Part shown: piece after piece, positions 45,542-59,204 of the stretch
How the letters are laid out: each line of letters begins with the position of its first letter
Numbering within the stretch: the first letter of the stretch is position 1
NCBI GenBank assembly: GCA_002010305.1
Contig: MTND01000034.1
Location: 1-63,081, forward strand
Direction of reading: 5' to 3'
Length of the DNA: 63,081 nucleotides
Origin: Archaeoglobi archaeon JdFR-42
GTDB lineage: Archaea; Halobacteriota; Archaeoglobi; Archaeoglobales; JdFR-42
Translations under genes and position numbers: made by a program
Notes under the pieces: model-generated
What the model was told of the DNA's origin: nothing
The model's input: the letters and a program-made list of their open reading frames with translations, nothing else
Databases searched by the model: none

Positions 45542-45626
45542 GCCGAGGTGGCCGAGTGGACTAAGGCGCAGGCCTGGAGAGCCTGTGTCCCCCTGGGACG
45601 CAAGGGTTCAAATCCCTTCCTCGGCG
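45542..45626 (+). tRNA. tRNA-Ser (GGA), provirus integration target
   Basis: The 85-nt class II tRNA has acceptor GCCGAGG/CCTCGGC, discriminator G73 (serine identity), anticodon stem CAGGC/GCCTG with anticodon GGA at 45576-45578, a long variable arm (GTCCC/GGGAC), and T loop TTCAAAT. CCA is not encoded. The integrase reading frame begins inside it and runs out of its 3' end. Confidence 0.96.
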
Positions 45627-46447
45627 CTCTTTCATGGACGGAGGAAGATGTAAATCACTTCCTCCTCCCATTACAGTTATCTGGTATAACAGAAGAGCAA
45701 ATTAAAGCTATTAAACGAAGATTAACGAGATTTTCTGAGGGTGTAAATTATCAATTAGACTATAACGAGATTATTATTTATATAAACAAAATTAAAAAAC
45801 AATATGCTCATGAGACATTCAGGAAACATATGATAGATATAAAAAGATTTTTAAAATACCTTGGAGTGGATTTTGCTGACCAAATAAAGATTCCTAAACC
45901 CCCAAAATACCGAAAACGTGTTGTTAAAGTCTCACATTTATTGGACTTATTCAGAGAGATCGATGAGAAAATCCATAATACACTATTACATTCTCGTATT
46001 CGTGCTGCTCTTCTGCTTAGTGCAACATCTGGATTACGACCTCTCGAGCTTTACAAATTAAACCTGCGATATGTGGATCTTGAGGAACGGATGATAAAAA
46101 TATCAGCAGAGATGAGCAAAACAAATCTTGAACGTGTAATTTATTTCAATAAGGAATCGGAAAAAACGTTAGAGGAATACTTATCTCTTGATCCTAATCC
46201 CTCTTTCACATTTTCACGTTTACGTGATGGATTTGAACGACTTGATAATGATCTGAGGATGAATCATATGAGGAAATTCTTTTCTCAGCAATCTGATCGA
46301 TTAGGCATGCCCACTGCGATAAAGAAGTTATTAATGGGTCATGAATTGGAACAGGATATTGATCTAATGCATTACGACTTCCAGGATGATGAAGATCTGA
46401 AAAAAATATATGATCGCTATTGGAGAGAGTTTAGGATTCTTGAATGA
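45548..46447 (+). CDS. int: Tyrosine recombinase (provirus integrase), frame open through tRNA-Ser
   Basis: The catalytic domain has R in ATSGLRPLELY, K in EMSKTNLERV, an N-x-x-R box (MNHMRKFFSQ, with Asn in place of the usual His), GH in LLMGHELEQ, and candidate nucleophiles in LMHYDFQ and KIYDRYW. The SAM-like core-binding domain occupies about residues 45-130. There is no ATG, GTG or TTG between the tRNA end and the Met of HMIDIKRF (near 45830), inside the core domain, so the native N-terminus must come from within or before the att site. In the circular virus another start would be joined here, as in SSV-type integrases. Confidence 0.9.
   Translation: MAEWTKAQAWRACVPLGRKGSNPFLGALSWTEEDVNHFLLPLQLSGITEEQIKAIKRRLTRFSEGVNYQLDYNEIIIYINKIKKQYAHETFRKHMIDIKRFLKYLGVDFADQIKIPKPPKYRKRVVKVSHLLDLFREIDEKIHNTLLHSRIRAALLLSATSGLRPLELYKLNLRYVDLEERMIKISAEMSKTNLERVIYFNKESEKTLEEYLSLDPNPSFTFSRLRDGFERLDNDLRMNHMRKFFSQQSDRLGMPTAIKKLLMGHELEQDIDLMHYDFQDDEDLKKIYDRYWREFRILE
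45580..45626 (+). other. Left attachment site (3' part of tRNA-Ser), boundaries approximate
   Basis: The integrase gene starts within tRNA-Ser and lies on the 3' side, so the att core must be inside the tRNA 3' half or its end. The exact core can only be set by comparison with the right junction outside the window. Confidence 0.5.
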
Positions 46448-50797: not shown

Positions 50798-51271
50798 TTA
50801 AGGTGGTCTTGCAGCGGTCAGATAATATTTCAAATTGATTTCAACTGCACTTGATTTTGAATAGGTCGGACTGACTTGAACTTGACAGAACATATCTCCT
50901 CCAGCACTGGCATTGAATAAACCGTATTCTGAAATATCCCCCACATATTCGGTTGTTCCGATGTATCCCAAAAATTCCAGTGTGTAGTTTACATCATCCC
51001 GAGTGATGCTTTGAATTGCCTTCCGATATTGTTCAGTTCCCAAAGCTGTGTTTTCTGGAAGAGGTGCTGCAGTTCCAGTTCCGATGGCAAAGTATTTCAT
51101 ATCCGCATAGGTCCCATAAGTCCCCCTGATGGCCTCGAGGATTTGCAGCAAACCCGAGTCAACAACCATGTTTTTATTCTCTCTTACTTTCTTCCATTTG
51201 TCGGTTTTTTCATCTTTTTCATATATCTGCAAAACGCCCTTGAACTGTATTCTCTCTTCTTGTTGCCCCAT
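50798..51271 (-). CDS. Tail-associated structural protein
   Basis: The 157-residue protein has a beta-rich sequence with FAIGTGTAAPLPENTALGTEQYRKAI and EYGLFNASAGGDMFCQVQVSPTYSKSS, a pattern common in phage tail-fibre or baseplate-associated proteins. Its position after the tail-hub genes agrees. The ATG lies 22 nt downstream of a GTCYA promoter. Confidence 0.65.
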   Translation of the reverse strand: MGQQEERIQFKGVLQIYEKDEKTDKWKKVRENKNMVVDSGLLQILEAIRGTYGTYADMKYFAIGTGTAAPLPENTALGTEQYRKAIQSITRDDVNYTLEFLGYIGTTEYVGDISEYGLFNASAGGDMFCQVQVSPTYSKSSAVEINLKYYLTAARPP

Positions 51272-51327: not shown

Positions 51328-51789
51328 TTAAATTTCTACAATTGTAAGCGAATCTGAAAACTGCACGGTCTCTGTGTCGGTAATGATCCTCGTTTTAATT
51401 ATCTGCAATGATCTCTCTAACGTCTCCAACCGTGATTTTAATCTCCCCATCAGAAGCACGAGGTTTTTACGATAGTTCTCGAATGTCACTTCCTGCTCAA
51501 TTCTGTATGGGTAAATGGTCTCAGTCATTTCTGCTACTGTGATGGTATCGTTGTATCCTTCTTTGTCGATCTTCAGTGTGATAATATCCCCCACATTGAT
51601 ATCTTCATCACTCATCATCGTTTTGATCGATATACGTGGATCCTTGTGTTCATCGATGATCGCTTGCCCCACTTGTTGGGCTTGGGTCTCTGATGTTATC
51701 CCATCGTCCTGGATCACAAATTCCCATTTTCCATGTGTACCTATGGATGTGAGATCTTCCACGATTTCGCTAATGGCTTGTTCTGTCAT
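51328..51789 (-). CDS. Tail hub protein, C-terminal half encoded separately
   Basis: The 153-residue protein looks like the C-terminal region of long tail hub proteins: GKWEFVIQDDGITSETQAQQVGQAIIDEHKDPRISIKT, NVGDIITLKI, YNDTITVAEM, and a final helix LLMGRLKSRLETLERSLQI. In related viruses this follows the N-terminal hub domain in one chain. Here it starts at its own ATG with GGGGG upstream, 10 nt after the stop of the kelch-bearing N-half. The two chains probably assemble together. Confidence 0.7.
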   Translation of the reverse strand: MTEQAISEIVEDLTSIGTHGKWEFVIQDDGITSETQAQQVGQAIIDEHKDPRISIKTMMSDEDINVGDIITLKIDKEGYNDTITVAEMTETIYPYRIEQEVTFENYRKNLVLLMGRLKSRLETLERSLQIIKTRIITDTETVQFSDSLTIVEI

Positions 51790-51799
51790 CTATTGCCCC

Positions 51800-53392
51800 C
51801 TATATCACCCTGAATTTAATGAATTTAGTGGAAATTACCACTCCACTATCTGGTTCTGGTTTGTATCCAAGGCCGACATATCCTTCGTTATTTATTTGAA
51901 ACGAGATTTTAAGTCTTCCAGCCATACCCGGACAAATCCCAATAAACTCATAAGTGTTTGATGTTGGATTATACGCCACCACAACCCAAGGAGAATATTC
52001 ATCGTGAAAGTCTCCTGAAGCAATATCTCTGTAAATTATGATTCCAAGGTTGTTTATACCGTATGCCGCAATAACCCTTCCAATTATTTCGTTAATCCCC
52101 GCCCATGTATTTGTTGAAGGATCGTATTCGTATAAGGTATAATCTGGATAATAACAACAATAACCCTTCCCACCACTTGAAAAAGCCCTCAAACCATCAT
52201 TATAATATGTTCGACCATAAACACATGGGGTATCTGCAATTTGCGTCCACGTATTTGTTGAAGGATCGTATTTCCACGCATCTGCTGCATCTCCTGAGAA
52301 AACATATCCGATCCCGTCGATTACAAACGCAACCATCCCACTGGTACTTCTATAATCTGGATCTCCTGTATTTACCGGCAAATTTGCTATTTGCGTCCAC
52401 GTATTTGTTGAAGGATCGTATTTATAGAATTTATTTGTATAATCACTTACATCTCTGTCATATCCTCCACCAACATATCCATACGTTCCATCAGAGAAAG
52501 ATACCATCTCATCAGCGTTTAATGGATATGCGATTTTCTGTGTCCAAGTATCTGTTTCAGAATCATATTCCCAAACATCTTTTGCAGTATTGCCTACAAC
52601 CAAATAGGTCTTCAATCCAATTGAAAAAGCGGTGCCGCCAGCATCGGTCGTCCAAACACCAGTATAATCTGATATATTGTTCCATACCACGTTGTTAACT
52701 CCAGATCCTCCAATAACCCCCCCACCTTCTGATACGTCTTTTTTTCCACCAAAAACATAAACTCTGTTTATCATATCTGCTTCTTCTTCGAGATCATAAT
52801 CTTCAATCAATTCAACGGTTGTAGTGGTGGTATTCTTCAAATTGGTTTTTGTATCGAAATACAAATCGTTGTTATCATCGACAAACCATATCCTTCCGCT
52901 CAATTCAGCTAATCGATTTAAACAGTCTTTCAAATCTTTCATGTAGAAATCGATAGATTCGAGGGTTATTCCGGTTAATCCAGCATAAACCGTGTTTATA
53001 ACATCACTTGCATAGTTATTGATCAGATCTGATACGATATATTCCACTGTTTGATTTGCATATTGTTCTGAAACGATACGATGAGTAAAGATAGTAGAAA
53101 CATCCGCACAATCAAGAGTCAAAATGGTTCTATTTCCTTCATATTCGTTCTTTTTATTCCTGATCACACCCTTGAATTTTCTCTGGATCCCATTCACCGT
53201 TATAGTGAGATCGATCGTATTGCCCACTGAAATCTGGTTGCTGACCGTGTTGTTGTTATCTCTAATTTTTATTATCGCAGTATCTGCATCTTCTCCAAAT
53301 TTTTTAGTTATCTCTACTGGAAAAATCAGAAGATCATTACTGGTTGAATCTGCTATCGTTGTCACTCCCACGAGAAGGGTGTACGTGGCCAT
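51800..53392 (-). CDS. Tail hub N-terminal half fused to a kelch-like beta-propeller
   Basis: Residues 1-225 match tail hub proteins (ITKKFGEDADTAIIKIRD; FKGVIRNKKNEYEGNRTILTLDCADVS; LNRLAELSGRIWFVDDNNDLYFDTK; INRVYVFGGKK). From about residue 235 to 525 there are five or six kelch-type blades with repeated YDPSTNTWTQI cores and GxGYVF/GGGYD strands. The propeller sits exactly where the hub would continue, and the chain then stops. It probably displays a receptor- or glycan-binding surface at the tail tip (inference). The gene starts one base inside the tape measure stop. Confidence 0.85.
   Translation of the reverse strand: MATYTLLVGVTTIADSTSNDLLIFPVEITKKFGEDADTAIIKIRDNNNTVSNQISVGNTIDLTITVNGIQRKFKGVIRNKKNEYEGNRTILTLDCADVSTIFTHRIVSEQYANQTVEYIVSDLINNYASDVINTVYAGLTGITLESIDFYMKDLKDCLNRLAELSGRIWFVDDNNDLYFDTKTNLKNTTTTTVELIEDYDLEEEADMINRVYVFGGKKDVSEGGGVIGGSGVNNVVWNNISDYTGVWTTDAGGTAFSIGLKTYLVVGNTAKDVWEYDSETDTWTQKIAYPLNADEMVSFSDGTYGYVGGGYDRDVSDYTNKFYKYDPSTNTWTQIANLPVNTGDPDYRSTSGMVAFVIDGIGYVFSGDAADAWKYDPSTNTWTQIADTPCVYGRTYYNDGLRAFSSGGKGYCCYYPDYTLYEYDPSTNTWAGINEIIGRVIAAYGINNLGIIIYRDIASGDFHDEYSPWVVVAYNPTSNTYEFIGICPGMAGRLKISFQINNEGYVGLGYKPEPDSGVVISTKFIKFRVI
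52239..52273 (-). repeat. Kelch DNA repeat, copy A
   Basis: A 35-bp segment encoding the YDPSTNTWTQI blade core is identical in sequence to 52390-52424. A third, shorter copy (22 bp identical) lies at 52107-52128. Codon-level identity implies recent duplication or gene conversion. Confidence 0.8.
52390..52424 (-). repeat. Kelch DNA repeat, copy B
   Basis: This copy is identical over 35 bp to 52239-52273, 151 bp away. The spacing equals about one propeller blade, so recombination between copies would add or remove a blade nearly in frame. Confidence 0.8.
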
Positions 53393-55671
53393 TAGAATCC
53401 TCCATATTGTGTTTTATACTGTCTTACTATTACATCTTCGACCGTATTTGCTGCCTTCTTTGCCAATTTGTTCTCATCCAAGGCCCATGAATCTGTAACG
53501 TTTATGTTTACCGTGACATTGCTGTTTATTTCATTCCCTCGCAATCCTTGTATTTTAGCTTGAATTGTGGAACCCAAATCAAGCTGTGGAATTTTATAAG
53601 CCGCCAGCGACTCTATTCCTATGAGACCCCTCACTTTCTTTGGTAATTTTTCCCAGATCCAATTTATTGCATCTATTACATGATTGATAAATGCAATCAC
53701 TGTGTCGTTGTATATCGCACTCAAGGAATCTCCAATTATTTTGCCAAGTTTTGCAAGAATATCTATAAATGCATTTTCAAGTATTGGAGCAGATCTTTTA
53801 AGGAGAATTAGGGTGGTTTTAACCCATAATTTCATTCCTATAACTGTAGCGACTCCAAGAATTTTAAATAAATTAAAAAACAATTTTGTCATAGTATCAG
53901 AGAACCCACTTCTTTCCACTTCTTTGGTACCCACTTCTAATGATTTAGAAAACGAACTCGTTAGATCTGTTGTTCCAGTCGTCACTTCAGTTATTATATC
54001 TGCCCAATTTTCTGCCATTTTGTCTAAAGCTTCAGTATCCGTAAATATCTTCCATGTTTCTTCGAACATGGTTTCAAGGCGGGTATTGAGTTTATCCATG
54101 CCACCTCTTAATGAATTATCTATCCATTCGTCTAATTTAAACGATATTGAAAACATATTCTGGATTGCTGCTGAAATTTTACTCCAATCAATTTCTTTTA
54201 AAAAATCCGTTATTTTTTGGACGAACGCCCTCTTTTCTTCGGAAGTGCTCTCCAATCCTAATCTAATTTTAATGTCTCCAATTATATTTTCTATTCCGCT
54301 TATTACGTCTTCCCAGCGTATCTCTGTTATTTTATCAGCAATCTCATTCACAAAACTAACAATTGTGTGTCTTGCACCCTCCAACGCCTCTCCTATTCTC
54401 TCCTTAATTTTGCCCCAATCATGACTCATAAAAAGTCCGATAAGCTCTTTTGTTTTCCTAAACATCGTGGATAATTTTGGGATTAACTTATCTTCCATAA
54501 ACGTGTATAGAAACTTAAATGCTTTGTTTTTTCGAATTATATCGAATAACCTACTGATCCACCCGACAAAATCCTCAATGGCGGGAATGATTTTATCCCG
54601 TATTACATCAAACAATTTGACAAGATGGGGGGATATCTTTTCGAATATTTTAAGTTGTAATGCTTCAAACCTTGATTTGAGCATTTTTAAAGACCCAGCC
54701 GTAGTGTCAGTTTGTTCTTTTGCCATTTTGCTTGCTTTGGTCGTTCCAGTTATATCTTTAGTCATTTCTCTGATAGCCTTGGACCCGGCCGGAATTAGTT
54801 TAAGCCAAACTCTGGCTCCTTCTTGACCGAATACTTTCGTGACATCGGCAGCAGACATGTTTGCTTTATTCAACACATCCACAATTTCTGCCATCGATTT
54901 TGTGGAAGGATTCACTTCTTCAAGAGTTATCCCGTATTTTTCCAATGTTTCCACCGCATCATCAGAGGGATTGAGCAATCTACTCATAGATGATGCAAGC
55001 AACCTTCCCGCAGATTCAGCTCTAACGCCAGCACTAACTAAAATTCCCATTGTTGCTGTGACCTCTTCCAAGGACATGCCCAATGAAGATGCCAAACCGC
55101 TTATGTATGGCATGGCCACTCCAATTCTTTCCATTGTGAGCTGACTGTTGGATATCGCAGCAGCAAAAACATTTGCAACTCGTGAAGATTCTGACGCTTC
55201 CATCCCGAATGCATTCAGGGTTGATACCACGATTTCAGACGTTGAAGCGAGATCTGATTGTGTGGCAGCAGCAAGGTCAAGGATTCCACTCAAACTGCTC
55301 ATGATGCTTTCAGTTTTATATCCAGCAGATGCGAGAAAGTACATAGCTTCTGCCGATTCACTGGCAGAAAAAACAGTTGTTTCCCCCATCTTTTTTGCGA
55401 AATTGGTTAATTTATCAAACTCTTGAGTACTTGCTCCCGCCACCGTTTGTACATTCTTCATGGCTTGCTCGAAATCCATTCCTGTCTTGGCAACTTTGGC
55501 GATTGCAAAACCAACACCCGCAATTCCCACAGTCATAGGTAGCCATGCAGAAGTGATAGATCTGGTTACCCCAGATATTTTCTTTCCCATCTTCGAGAGT
55601 CTGGTTTCAATGTTTTTGATTGGTTTGGTTGCTTTATCGATTCCTTGAATTACTATTTTGATATTTTCCAT
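53392..55671 (-). CDS. Tail tape measure protein (TP901 family)
   Basis: The 759-residue protein has the TP901 N-terminal core: MDFEQAMKNVQTVAGAS, FAKKMGETTVFSASESAEAMYFLASAGYKTESIMSSL, MEASESSRVANVFAAAISNSQLTMERI, and EVTATMGILVSAGVRAESAG. Later parts are helical with hydrophobic stretches (LFNLFKILGVATVIGMKLWV). It sets tail length and is ejected with the DNA. Roughly 1.5 angstrom per residue predicts a tail near 110 nm. Confidence 0.93.
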   Translation of the reverse strand: MENIKIVIQGIDKATKPIKNIETRLSKMGKKISGVTRSITSAWLPMTVGIAGVGFAIAKVAKTGMDFEQAMKNVQTVAGASTQEFDKLTNFAKKMGETTVFSASESAEAMYFLASAGYKTESIMSSLSGILDLAAATQSDLASTSEIVVSTLNAFGMEASESSRVANVFAAAISNSQLTMERIGVAMPYISGLASSLGMSLEEVTATMGILVSAGVRAESAGRLLASSMSRLLNPSDDAVETLEKYGITLEEVNPSTKSMAEIVDVLNKANMSAADVTKVFGQEGARVWLKLIPAGSKAIREMTKDITGTTKASKMAKEQTDTTAGSLKMLKSRFEALQLKIFEKISPHLVKLFDVIRDKIIPAIEDFVGWISRLFDIIRKNKAFKFLYTFMEDKLIPKLSTMFRKTKELIGLFMSHDWGKIKERIGEALEGARHTIVSFVNEIADKITEIRWEDVISGIENIIGDIKIRLGLESTSEEKRAFVQKITDFLKEIDWSKISAAIQNMFSISFKLDEWIDNSLRGGMDKLNTRLETMFEETWKIFTDTEALDKMAENWADIITEVTTGTTDLTSSFSKSLEVGTKEVERSGFSDTMTKLFFNLFKILGVATVIGMKLWVKTTLILLKRSAPILENAFIDILAKLGKIIGDSLSAIYNDTVIAFINHVIDAINWIWEKLPKKVRGLIGIESLAAYKIPQLDLGSTIQAKIQGLRGNEINSNVTVNINVTDSWALDENKLAKKAANTVEDVIVRQYKTQYGGF

Positions 55672-55746: not shown

Positions 55747-56301
55747 TTACATCAAATCAGTGATATTGACTTCAAATACGATCTCAGGAATATTCTCCCA
55801 TACCGTTTTTGGATAAGGTTGTCCAAGCGACTTATTTATCTCACCCATGAGATCTAATCCCCAATTCGATGTATTTAAATAGAGTTTCGTGTTTTCCCAT
55901 TTCCCAGGGGCTGGGATGGGGATGTATACGCTATCTATTATTTTTGCATGTGGTAATATGACAATCCCATTGAAATCTTTTAAATCGCTTATTTCATCTC
56001 CTCCAATTAGTTCTATACTTTCAACTTGTTGTCCATCAATGATCGCATATTGGGTTCCAATCGAATAATATGGTATTTTTTCATCTAATGTGTTTTCAAT
56101 TCCATAGATTAACCTTAAATAATACTCGTTATTACCATAACCGATATATTCTGCATCAACAAAAGTAAACTTTATTCCTTCAAACTCCACCACATCCCCC
56201 ACGTGAAGCACTGGAGTCGTTGTTTTGACCTCGGATTCGGTACATCCTGCAAATATCATTGCAACCAATACTCCCAAAACAAATAATATTTTTAGTTTCA
56301 T
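55747..56301 (-). CDS. Secreted lipoprotein of the provirus (DUF4352-like)
   Basis: From ATG 56301 the protein (about 184 residues) starts MKLKILFVLGVLVAMIFAGC, a signal peptide with a lipobox (FAGC), followed by beta-rich segments (VLHVGDVVEFEGIKFTFVDAEYIGYG; YYLRLIYGIENTLDEKIPYY) like DUF4352/telomeric-repeat-type extracellular domains. GGGGGGAG precedes this ATG. It sits between the tail chaperones and the tape measure gene. In Streptococcus phages a lipoprotein encoded near tail genes blocks superinfection; the same role is a hypothesis here. Confidence 0.75.
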   Translation of the reverse strand: MKLKILFVLGVLVAMIFAGCTESEVKTTTPVLHVGDVVEFEGIKFTFVDAEYIGYGNNEYYLRLIYGIENTLDEKIPYYSIGTQYAIIDGQQVESIELIGGDEISDLKDFNGIVILPHAKIIDSVYIPIPAPGKWENTKLYLNTSNWGLDLMGEINKSLGQPYPKTVWENIPEIVFEVNITDLM

Positions 56302-56385
56302 ACTCTCCCCCCAATGATAATTTACACACAGGTATACACACAAGATATAATAACTTTGCTCGTCTTTTAATCGATTTTAATAAAA

Positions 56386-57079: not shown

Positions 57080-58006
57080 TTAGTAATACGTGGCTTGATC
57101 CCCAGTCATTCTCACTTTAATGCAATTCTTGTTTGTGGCATCAGCTTGCGATATGAAAACCAATTCGATCTCTTTTTGAGAATCTGCTTCGGTTACATCG
57201 TTCAAAGATTCAAATGTTGCATCTTCGATCGTGATTTCTATTTCATCATTCGTTCCCCGAATAACCTTCAGGGTTATGTCGGCCGTGTCTTCATTCAACA
57301 CAAAATCGCCCAATGTGTAATCAAATTTGCAAGTTAGTGAACCTGTTACCTCCCGCATTCCCTCATCGATAGCTCGTGGTTTTCCATCGGCTCCAATATC
57401 AACCGATAGATTGTTGGTCATATTGATATCAAAACTCTTTATGTAAGCATTTATGTCGGTTGCACCAAACGTAGCGGTTGCCAAGTTGGTGACTCTGAAG
57501 GGCAATGCTTGAGTATAACTTGGAGTGGCCAATCCAGTATCAATCTTTAACTTATCTTTAGCCATGAAATTCAATTCGAATTCCATCGCTTGACCCACTT
57601 CACCCTTGATACTCAATGTATTCATTTTACATCCAAGTACTTTGTAGGCTTTAGCACCCCATTGTCTCTCTAACGTGAAAGAAGGTAATACTTCAGTTTC
57701 CTCGAAATCATGATAGTATGGAGCACTTACTGCAGATGTGGCATTTTCCGTCAAACTACCCAACGCATGTTTAAGAAATTTCCATTCTGTGGCGTTTGCG
57801 ACTATTCGTCCTTCTACATATTTTGTTGTGCTGTAAACCATCGGATAATTTCGTACCCCCCACAACGCTGGTTTTTTCTCTAAATTCCTGACCCACTCTG
57901 CTTCAACTGTTTGTACATCTGCCGTTTTATCTCCTGTACCAGGATCTGTTCCGAATGTGCTTTCGTCCCTCCATAGGAGATATCCCCCACTTGTTCCAAT
58001 TCCCAT
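57080..58006 (-). CDS. Major tail (tube) protein
   Basis: About 308 residues, starting MGIGTSGGYLLWRDESTFGT. Beta-rich segments (VEGRIVANATEWKFLKHALGSL; FTLERQWGAKAYKVLGCKMNTLSIKGEVGQAMEFELNFMAKD; FDINMTNNLSVDIGADGKPRAIDEGMREVTGSLTCKF) are typical of tail tube proteins of long-tailed phages and archaeal viruses. I start at ATG 58006 with GGGGAGG 9 nt upstream; the TTG at 58015 is the alternative. Many copies form the tail tube. Confidence 0.85.
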   Translation of the reverse strand: MGIGTSGGYLLWRDESTFGTDPGTGDKTADVQTVEAEWVRNLEKKPALWGVRNYPMVYSTTKYVEGRIVANATEWKFLKHALGSLTENATSAVSAPYYHDFEETEVLPSFTLERQWGAKAYKVLGCKMNTLSIKGEVGQAMEFELNFMAKDKLKIDTGLATPSYTQALPFRVTNLATATFGATDINAYIKSFDINMTNNLSVDIGADGKPRAIDEGMREVTGSLTCKFDYTLGDFVLNEDTADITLKVIRGTNDEIEITIEDATFESLNDVTEADSQKEIELVFISQADATNKNCIKVRMTGDQATYY

Positions 58007-58007
58007 T

Positions 58008-58187
58008 TTATTCAACCTCCCCTACTTTCCGTTTCTTTGTTTTAGAGTCTTCCTCGACTTCCTTCAAGATGCCCTGGTCGATGAACCGAAGAATATCAAT
58101 GGTTGGATCTACCTCTTTGACTTCCCTCCGCTCAACTATTACAGGACCAACATGCACTCGTTCTGCCTTCACAACTTTCACTTTCAC
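58008..58187 (-). CDS. Small 59-residue protein upstream of tail tube
   Basis: The GTG at 58187 has GGGAGCG upstream and lies 4 nt after the tail terminator stop. The product VKVKVVKAERVHVGPVIVER ... SKTKKRKVGEVE is basic and charged. The last codons abut the ribosome site of the tail tube gene. No family is recognised. Confidence 0.5.
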   Translation of the reverse strand: MKVKVVKAERVHVGPVIVERREVKEVDPTIDILRFIDQGILKEVEEDSKTKKRKVGEVE

Positions 58188-59035: not shown

Positions 59036-59109
59036 AGCCGGTGACCAGATTTGAACTGGTGTTCTGGAGGTTACAGGCCCCCCGCATTAAGCCACTATGC
59101 TACACCGGC
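59036..59109 (-). tRNA. tRNA-Thr (TGT)
   Basis: The cloverleaf pairs GCCGGTG/CACCGGC, D stem GCAT/ATGC, anticodon stem GGGGG/CCTCC with loop CCTGTAA, and T stem ACCAG/CTGGT with loop TTCAAAT. The discriminator is T73, typical for archaeal tRNA-Thr. Position 33 is C instead of U, an unusual feature that could reduce function. It lies 11 nt from tRNA-Gln. Confidence 0.88.
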
Positions 59110-59132
59110 ATTTGGCTCAACCCTCAACAAAG

Positions 59133-59204
59133 TGGACCCAGAGGGAATTGAACCCTCGGCCATCACCTCGCAAGGGTGGCATTCTACCCCTGAACTATGG
59201 GCCC
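59133..59204 (-). tRNA. tRNA-Ala (TGC)
   Basis: The cloverleaf pairs GGGCCCA/TGGGTCC, with the alanine identity pair G3-U70 and A73. D stem GTTC/GAAT; anticodon stem CCACC/GGTGA (outermost pair mismatched) with loop CTTGCGA; T stem GAGGG/CCCTC with loop TTCAATT. It is the first RNA of the viral cluster. Confidence 0.9.

Follow-up and report, generated by a model that had tools for sequence, protein, structure and literature searches.

A baseplate hub divided between two reading frames

We found that a provirus of the archaeon JdFR-42 encodes its baseplate hub in two adjacent open reading frames, the first of which ends in a kelch propeller. In the window (the whole stretch of 63,081 nucleotides of contig MTND01000034.1 that we analyzed), ORF A (530 amino acids, positions 51,800–53,392, minus strand) contains the N-terminal three fifths of a hub (residues 1–217, 52,742–53,392, minus strand, with final strand INRVYVFGG); a complete kelch propeller of six blades (residues 235–530, 51,803–52,690, minus strand) comes next, and then a TAG stop codon. 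ORF B (153 amino acids, 51,328–51,789, minus strand) contains the second part of the hub core in residues 3–118, followed by a short C-terminal tail. An earlier sequence-only reading had described this N-terminal hub part running into a propeller and a stop, with the missing half in a separate ORF with its own ribosome site, and both descriptions were borne out. We consider it probable that, in this siphovirus-like Archaeoglobales provirus, the two chains assemble into one trimeric hub, with the propeller serving as a peripheral host-binding adhesin.

Residues 1–217 of ORF A matched the baseplate hub family phrog_4930 (2.7e-6), NCBIfam NF047561 (7e-8) and the VgrG family TIGR01646 (1e-4), and ORF B had weak matches to Prophage_tail and several phage tail families and also matched the hubs of haloviruses HCTV-1 and HCTV-16. 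On a hub profile of 341 nodes, constructed from seven one-chain relatives with the window excluded, ORF A covered nodes 9–218 and ORF B nodes 222–336, with no overlap and a near-zero gap. A second profile (351 nodes), from which both the window and its closest relative, the hub of genome G022, were left out, scored ORF A at 50.8 bits (nodes 42–225) and ORF B at 39.4 bits (nodes 226–338), whereas the best of 600 shuffled sequences reached 7.3 bits. The earlier reading had named a failure of the two ORFs to complement one fold as grounds for abandoning it; at the level of profiles, no such failure occurred. As in hubs of the gp27/VgrG type, the core profile was matched along its whole length, here by ORF A and ORF B jointly, and the gene lies directly after that of the tape measure protein in the tail operon (53,392–55,671, minus strand; PhageMin_Tail, 5.7e-44), whose stop overlaps the ORF A start.

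When compared with all solved structures, the seven-relative profile gave one good match, the HFTV1 baseplate hub (E = 2.9e-39), a link that runs through the family profile and not through ORF A or ORF B alone; two-sequence profiles of each half matched no hub among the solved structures. AlphaFold modeling of chain A without an alignment was uninformative (pLDDT 43). Identity to the G022 hub was 56% for the core part in ORF A and 36% for the C-terminal part in ORF B, and the lower conservation of the latter could reflect relaxed constraint.

The two ORFs are separated by 10 nucleotides. ORF A ends in ATA TAG, which is followed by GGGGCAATAG and then by the ATG of ORF B, and the ribosome site AGGGGG (51,796–51,801, minus strand), with GGTGAT upstream of it, overlaps the ORF A stop and lies 6 nucleotides 5′ of this ATG. 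In the frame of ORF A a second stop occurs 10 codons past its TAG, and in the frame of ORF B a TAG stands immediately 5′ of the ATG, with further stops upstream. These stops in both frames ruled out a single frameshift or indel joining ORF A to ORF B, which speaks against an assembly error as the origin of the stop, named by the earlier reading as a possible refuter, and they likewise ruled out read-through of the TAG (e.g., as pyrrolysine). Given these stops and the spacing of AGGGGG from the ATG, we read the chain as restarting at ORF B. Both frames are clean along their entire length, the adjoining tail genes are intact, and ORF A finishes exactly on its final kelch strand, without any linker that would return to the hub.

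The kelch propeller

Residues 235–530 of ORF A matched Pfam Kelch_1 at 2.7e-19 (68.8 bits, relative to a cut-off of 20.1) and consist of six consecutive d-a-b-c units of 46–52 amino acids each, so that the propeller named by the sequence-only reading stood, and its count of "five-to-six" blades became exactly six. The strand that opens the first unit resembles 'NTWTQ', the strand found after each motif, and the strand that closes the last unit is the one found before the motif; the ring is therefore predicted to close in the usual way, in that the first unit's N-terminal strand would complete blade 6 and bring the two ends of the propeller together. A single-sequence model of the kelch part was of moderate confidence (mean pLDDT 59), with poorly defined ends. 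Foldseek nonetheless matched this model to the designed six-blade protein SAKe6 and to KEAP1 kelch domains (E ~1e-13 to 1e-14, probability 1.00, TM ~0.5), and the viral proteins that it matched were poxvirus and jumbo-phage kelch proteins. A closed ring of four-stranded blades of about 50 amino acids is indicated by the six sequence units and by these Foldseek matches, the ends of the model being poor.

Over KYDPSTNTW, the codons of blades 2–4 are almost unchanged (12 of 15 are identical between blades 2 and 3), and the rest of the blades have diverged, a pattern that suggests recent duplication or conversion. We also observed a 42-nucleotide DNA repeat present in four copies, 144–150 nucleotides apart, within the kelch blades (52,088–52,570); two of these copies are 95% identical despite the diverged protein between them. 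Such repeats could act as recombination anchors for blade exchange. This genome yielded no second kelch copy, nor did we see a diversity-generating element at the hub.

Beta-propellers are known as virion parts for which host binding has been proposed, as we propose here: the receptor-binding protein of phage phi11 has a propeller (PMC4901313), and jumbo phages have kelch virion proteins, e.g., CBB_552 and PhiPA3 (PMC5259590). However, these are separate receptor-binding or virion proteins that lie outside the hub.

Related hubs and the site of the cut

Searching 394 genomes of the phylum with the hub profile gave 24 matches. A hit in L047 was rejected as a false match, being DNA gyrase. The hub matches outside the window lay in open frames of at least 351 amino acids, and only the window's hub occupied two frames; the split hub is known from this one genome. 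Among IMG/VR and GTDB genome contigs, a search for close relatives found only the window's own UViG.

The provirus of the Archaeoglobales genome G022 (hub at L012:9615-11780) is syntenic with that of JdFR-42, to which it is also related in its integrase, tape measure and downstream genes; its hub, however, is one chain of 721 amino acids and has nothing inserted at the kelch site. The G022 hub carries a DUF2341-containing insert of about 320 amino acids between residues 60 and 69, and is followed by a fibre of 445 amino acids with no counterpart in the JdFR-42 provirus. The earlier reading had recommended comparison with intact hubs and a search for hubs with inserts at the same place, as reported here. 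Like the G022 hub, HFTV1 gp44 (PDB 9h4p, 9h5b and 9h7v; PMC12494034) is continuous across the cut: it has a homologous hub core, the profile of the relatives matches its residues 87–367, and the JdFR-42 cut maps to its residues ~234–241, where the profile match is unbroken. Inserts at the kelch insertion point were present in the hubs of G049 (L044:149-1588; an Ig-like domain of about 90–100 amino acids) and G045 (L046:2-1357; G045:C128; an unassigned domain of about 140 amino acids), each in a single ORF with no kelch domain. As judged from the L044 and L046 sequences, the cut point tolerates inserts. In the G025 hub an insert of about 270 amino acids, read by eye, lies elsewhere, around residue 185. 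The hub of Syntrophomonadaceae phage IMGVR 15540650 (L026:2567-4942) belongs to the same superfamily and carries a propeller that we assigned to the BNR/Asp-box type from a reading of its motifs, the Pfam match being below cut-off; it differs from the JdFR-42 propeller in family, in its position near the N-terminus and in residing in a single chain.

A hub may be built from one to three chains (PMC13243795): in lambda the hub domains are shared between gpL and gpJ (PMC10721106), and in RcGTA between the hub (g13) and the megatron (g15) (PMC7296036). The JdFR-42 hub resembles these multi-chain hubs in having its core divided over more than one polypeptide. In lambda gpL/gpI/gpJ and RcGTA g13/g15, one hub subunit is assembled from two or three polypeptides and the break is a focus of added domains (PMC10721106, PMC7296036, PMC13243795), as would be the case here. 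In lambda and RcGTA the break comes after HDI, within the insertion of HDII (HDI and HDII being hub domains), and no propeller lies there; the JdFR-42 break is ~217 residues in, at node 218 of 341, and judged by length would lie beyond the first domain. The hub part of ORF A also lacks the four-cysteine Fe-S cluster of lambda gpL, having only the two cysteines C95 and C157. The archaeal tailed virus HFTV1 has additional globular domains suspended from its hub ring (PMC12494034), but gp44 is one chain and its extra domains are not kelch. With the terms used, searches of open-access papers turned up none on a split hub and none on a kelch domain in a tail hub. The earlier reading, which knew of no described tail hub with this arrangement, overstated the uniqueness with respect to the inserts at the same point, the multi-chain hubs of lambda and RcGTA and the L026 propeller. 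We see the JdFR-42 hub as an unusual variant among tail hubs of the multi-part and decorated kinds already known. To the multi-chain hubs of lambda and RcGTA it contributes a further break point. Taken with the hubs of G022, G025, G049 and G045, it points to a view of archaeal virus hubs as scaffolds that carry different domains at a small number of fixed loops, and this pattern gives a rule, open to testing, by which the receptor-binding parts of uncultured archaeal viruses might be recognized.

Other proviruses contained features of their own. In an Archaeoglobales provirus of genome G008, a tail-fibre-like protein (L016:6190-7776) appears to have a DUF2341 domain like the G022 hub insert, which suggests that adhesion domains may move between fibre and hub genes. 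A contractile-tail provirus of the same order (genome G016, L017) contains a diversity-generating retroelement (L017:3048-3160 and L017:3613-5223; reverse transcriptase at L017:1827-2870), whose 113-bp template repeat shares 87% identity with the 3′ end of a tail-fibre gene; each of the 15 mismatches falls on an adenine of the template. A head-morphogenesis-like protein of genome G027 (L014:99-1505) apparently contains an intein that is absent from a related gene (L015:10994-11770).

Proposed assembly, alternatives and provirus setting

Around the cut point, the one-chain G022 hub reads INRVYIYGG-LDSNN-VRVAVQMED, and we infer that this sequence in one-chain relatives is a beta-hairpin, with the cut at its predicted tip. 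ORF A keeps the first hairpin strand (INRVYVFGG) and ORF B the second (AISEIVED), so that assembly should need these strands, neighbors in one-chain relatives, to pair in trans, which would happen as three such subunits come together in the hub ring on the tail tube. The six-blade propeller would then hang from the cut end of chain A, with its first and last strands side by side, as insertion at a hairpin tip requires. In the simplest history, a kelch domain with its own stop would have been inserted at a tolerated site, and a newly gained start and ribosome site would have saved the remainder of the hub. The propellers would lie around the tail tip and attach to the host surface, presumably the S-layer or its glycans. 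Two archaeal tailed viruses are stated to use the S-layer as their receptor (PMC12494034), and the 445-amino-acid fibre of G022 is absent here, where the kelch domain may do the binding in its place; by analogy, these two points make binding of the host surface the most likely role of the propeller. More tentatively, with a chance that we put somewhat short of even, this could be a new hub architecture, in which a hairpin tip in the second half of the fold is where the hub is cut, and pairing of strands from the two chains restores it; the free end of the first chain would carry a whole adhesin as a swappable cassette, and the near-identical DNA anchors between the diverged blades would let the blades recombine.

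A split hub could also work with its propeller as a structural or docking part, such as a mount for the fibre-like protein of 157 amino acids, rather than as an adhesin. Kelch propellers generally bind proteins, and the gene for this tail-collar-fibre-like protein (50,798–51,271, minus strand; a weak Phage_tail_fib match, phrog_5417 at 1.3e-21, and synteny) adjoins the hub downstream, both of which would suit such a role. However, the protein is a homologue of a 149-amino-acid protein that G022 retains despite having no propeller, and the variety of hub inserts among relatives (DUF2341, Ig-like, kelch, BNR propeller) is more what one would expect of host-binding modules than of a conserved dock. 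We regard a docking role as unlikely, though worth keeping in view beside that of an adhesin.

The division of the hub might instead mark a defective provirus, the kelch insertion and stop having inactivated the hub and left ORF B as a fragment. That the split is unique among the hub loci found, that the contig holds part of the provirus only, and that ORF B is less conserved than ORF A relative to G022 are consistent with decay, but decay should bring losses or more stops, and what we observed was clean frames, intact neighboring tail genes, and an ATG, preceded by a good ribosome site, at the very point where ORF A stops matching the hub, with zero residues lost. We consider inactivation quite improbable. 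An error of assembly or consensus, with the hub and its kelch insert forming one continuous ORF in the true genome, as in G049 and G045, seems to us very improbable: unsplit hubs with inserts at the kelch point do exist, and the genome is probably metagenome-assembled, but at least two changes would be needed (affecting the TAG of ORF A, the frame, and the TAG before the ATG of ORF B), the ribosome site lies at the correct distance, and chain A has nothing after its final kelch strand to lead back to the hub. We therefore favor two chains forming one hub that bears a host-binding propeller.

The contig ends within the provirus, whose integration end is marked by a tyrosine integrase gene that overlaps a tRNA-Ser (45,542–46,447, plus strand), and its tail genes include that of a tail tube protein (57,080–58,015, minus strand; Phage_tube_2, 3.7e-31). 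The host genome (2.15 Mb, 99.6% complete) has two MCR-alpha genes, and the host is probably Ca. Polytropus marinifundus, an archaeon of the deep subseafloor and a member of the Archaeoglobi, which has two mcrABG operons (PMC6474303). Genes for tRNA-Thr and tRNA-Ala lie between the tail genes of the provirus (59,036–59,204), and a predicted lipoprotein (lipobox FAGC; no Pfam match) is encoded beside the tape measure gene (55,747–56,343), in a position that recalls that of superinfection-exclusion lipoproteins.
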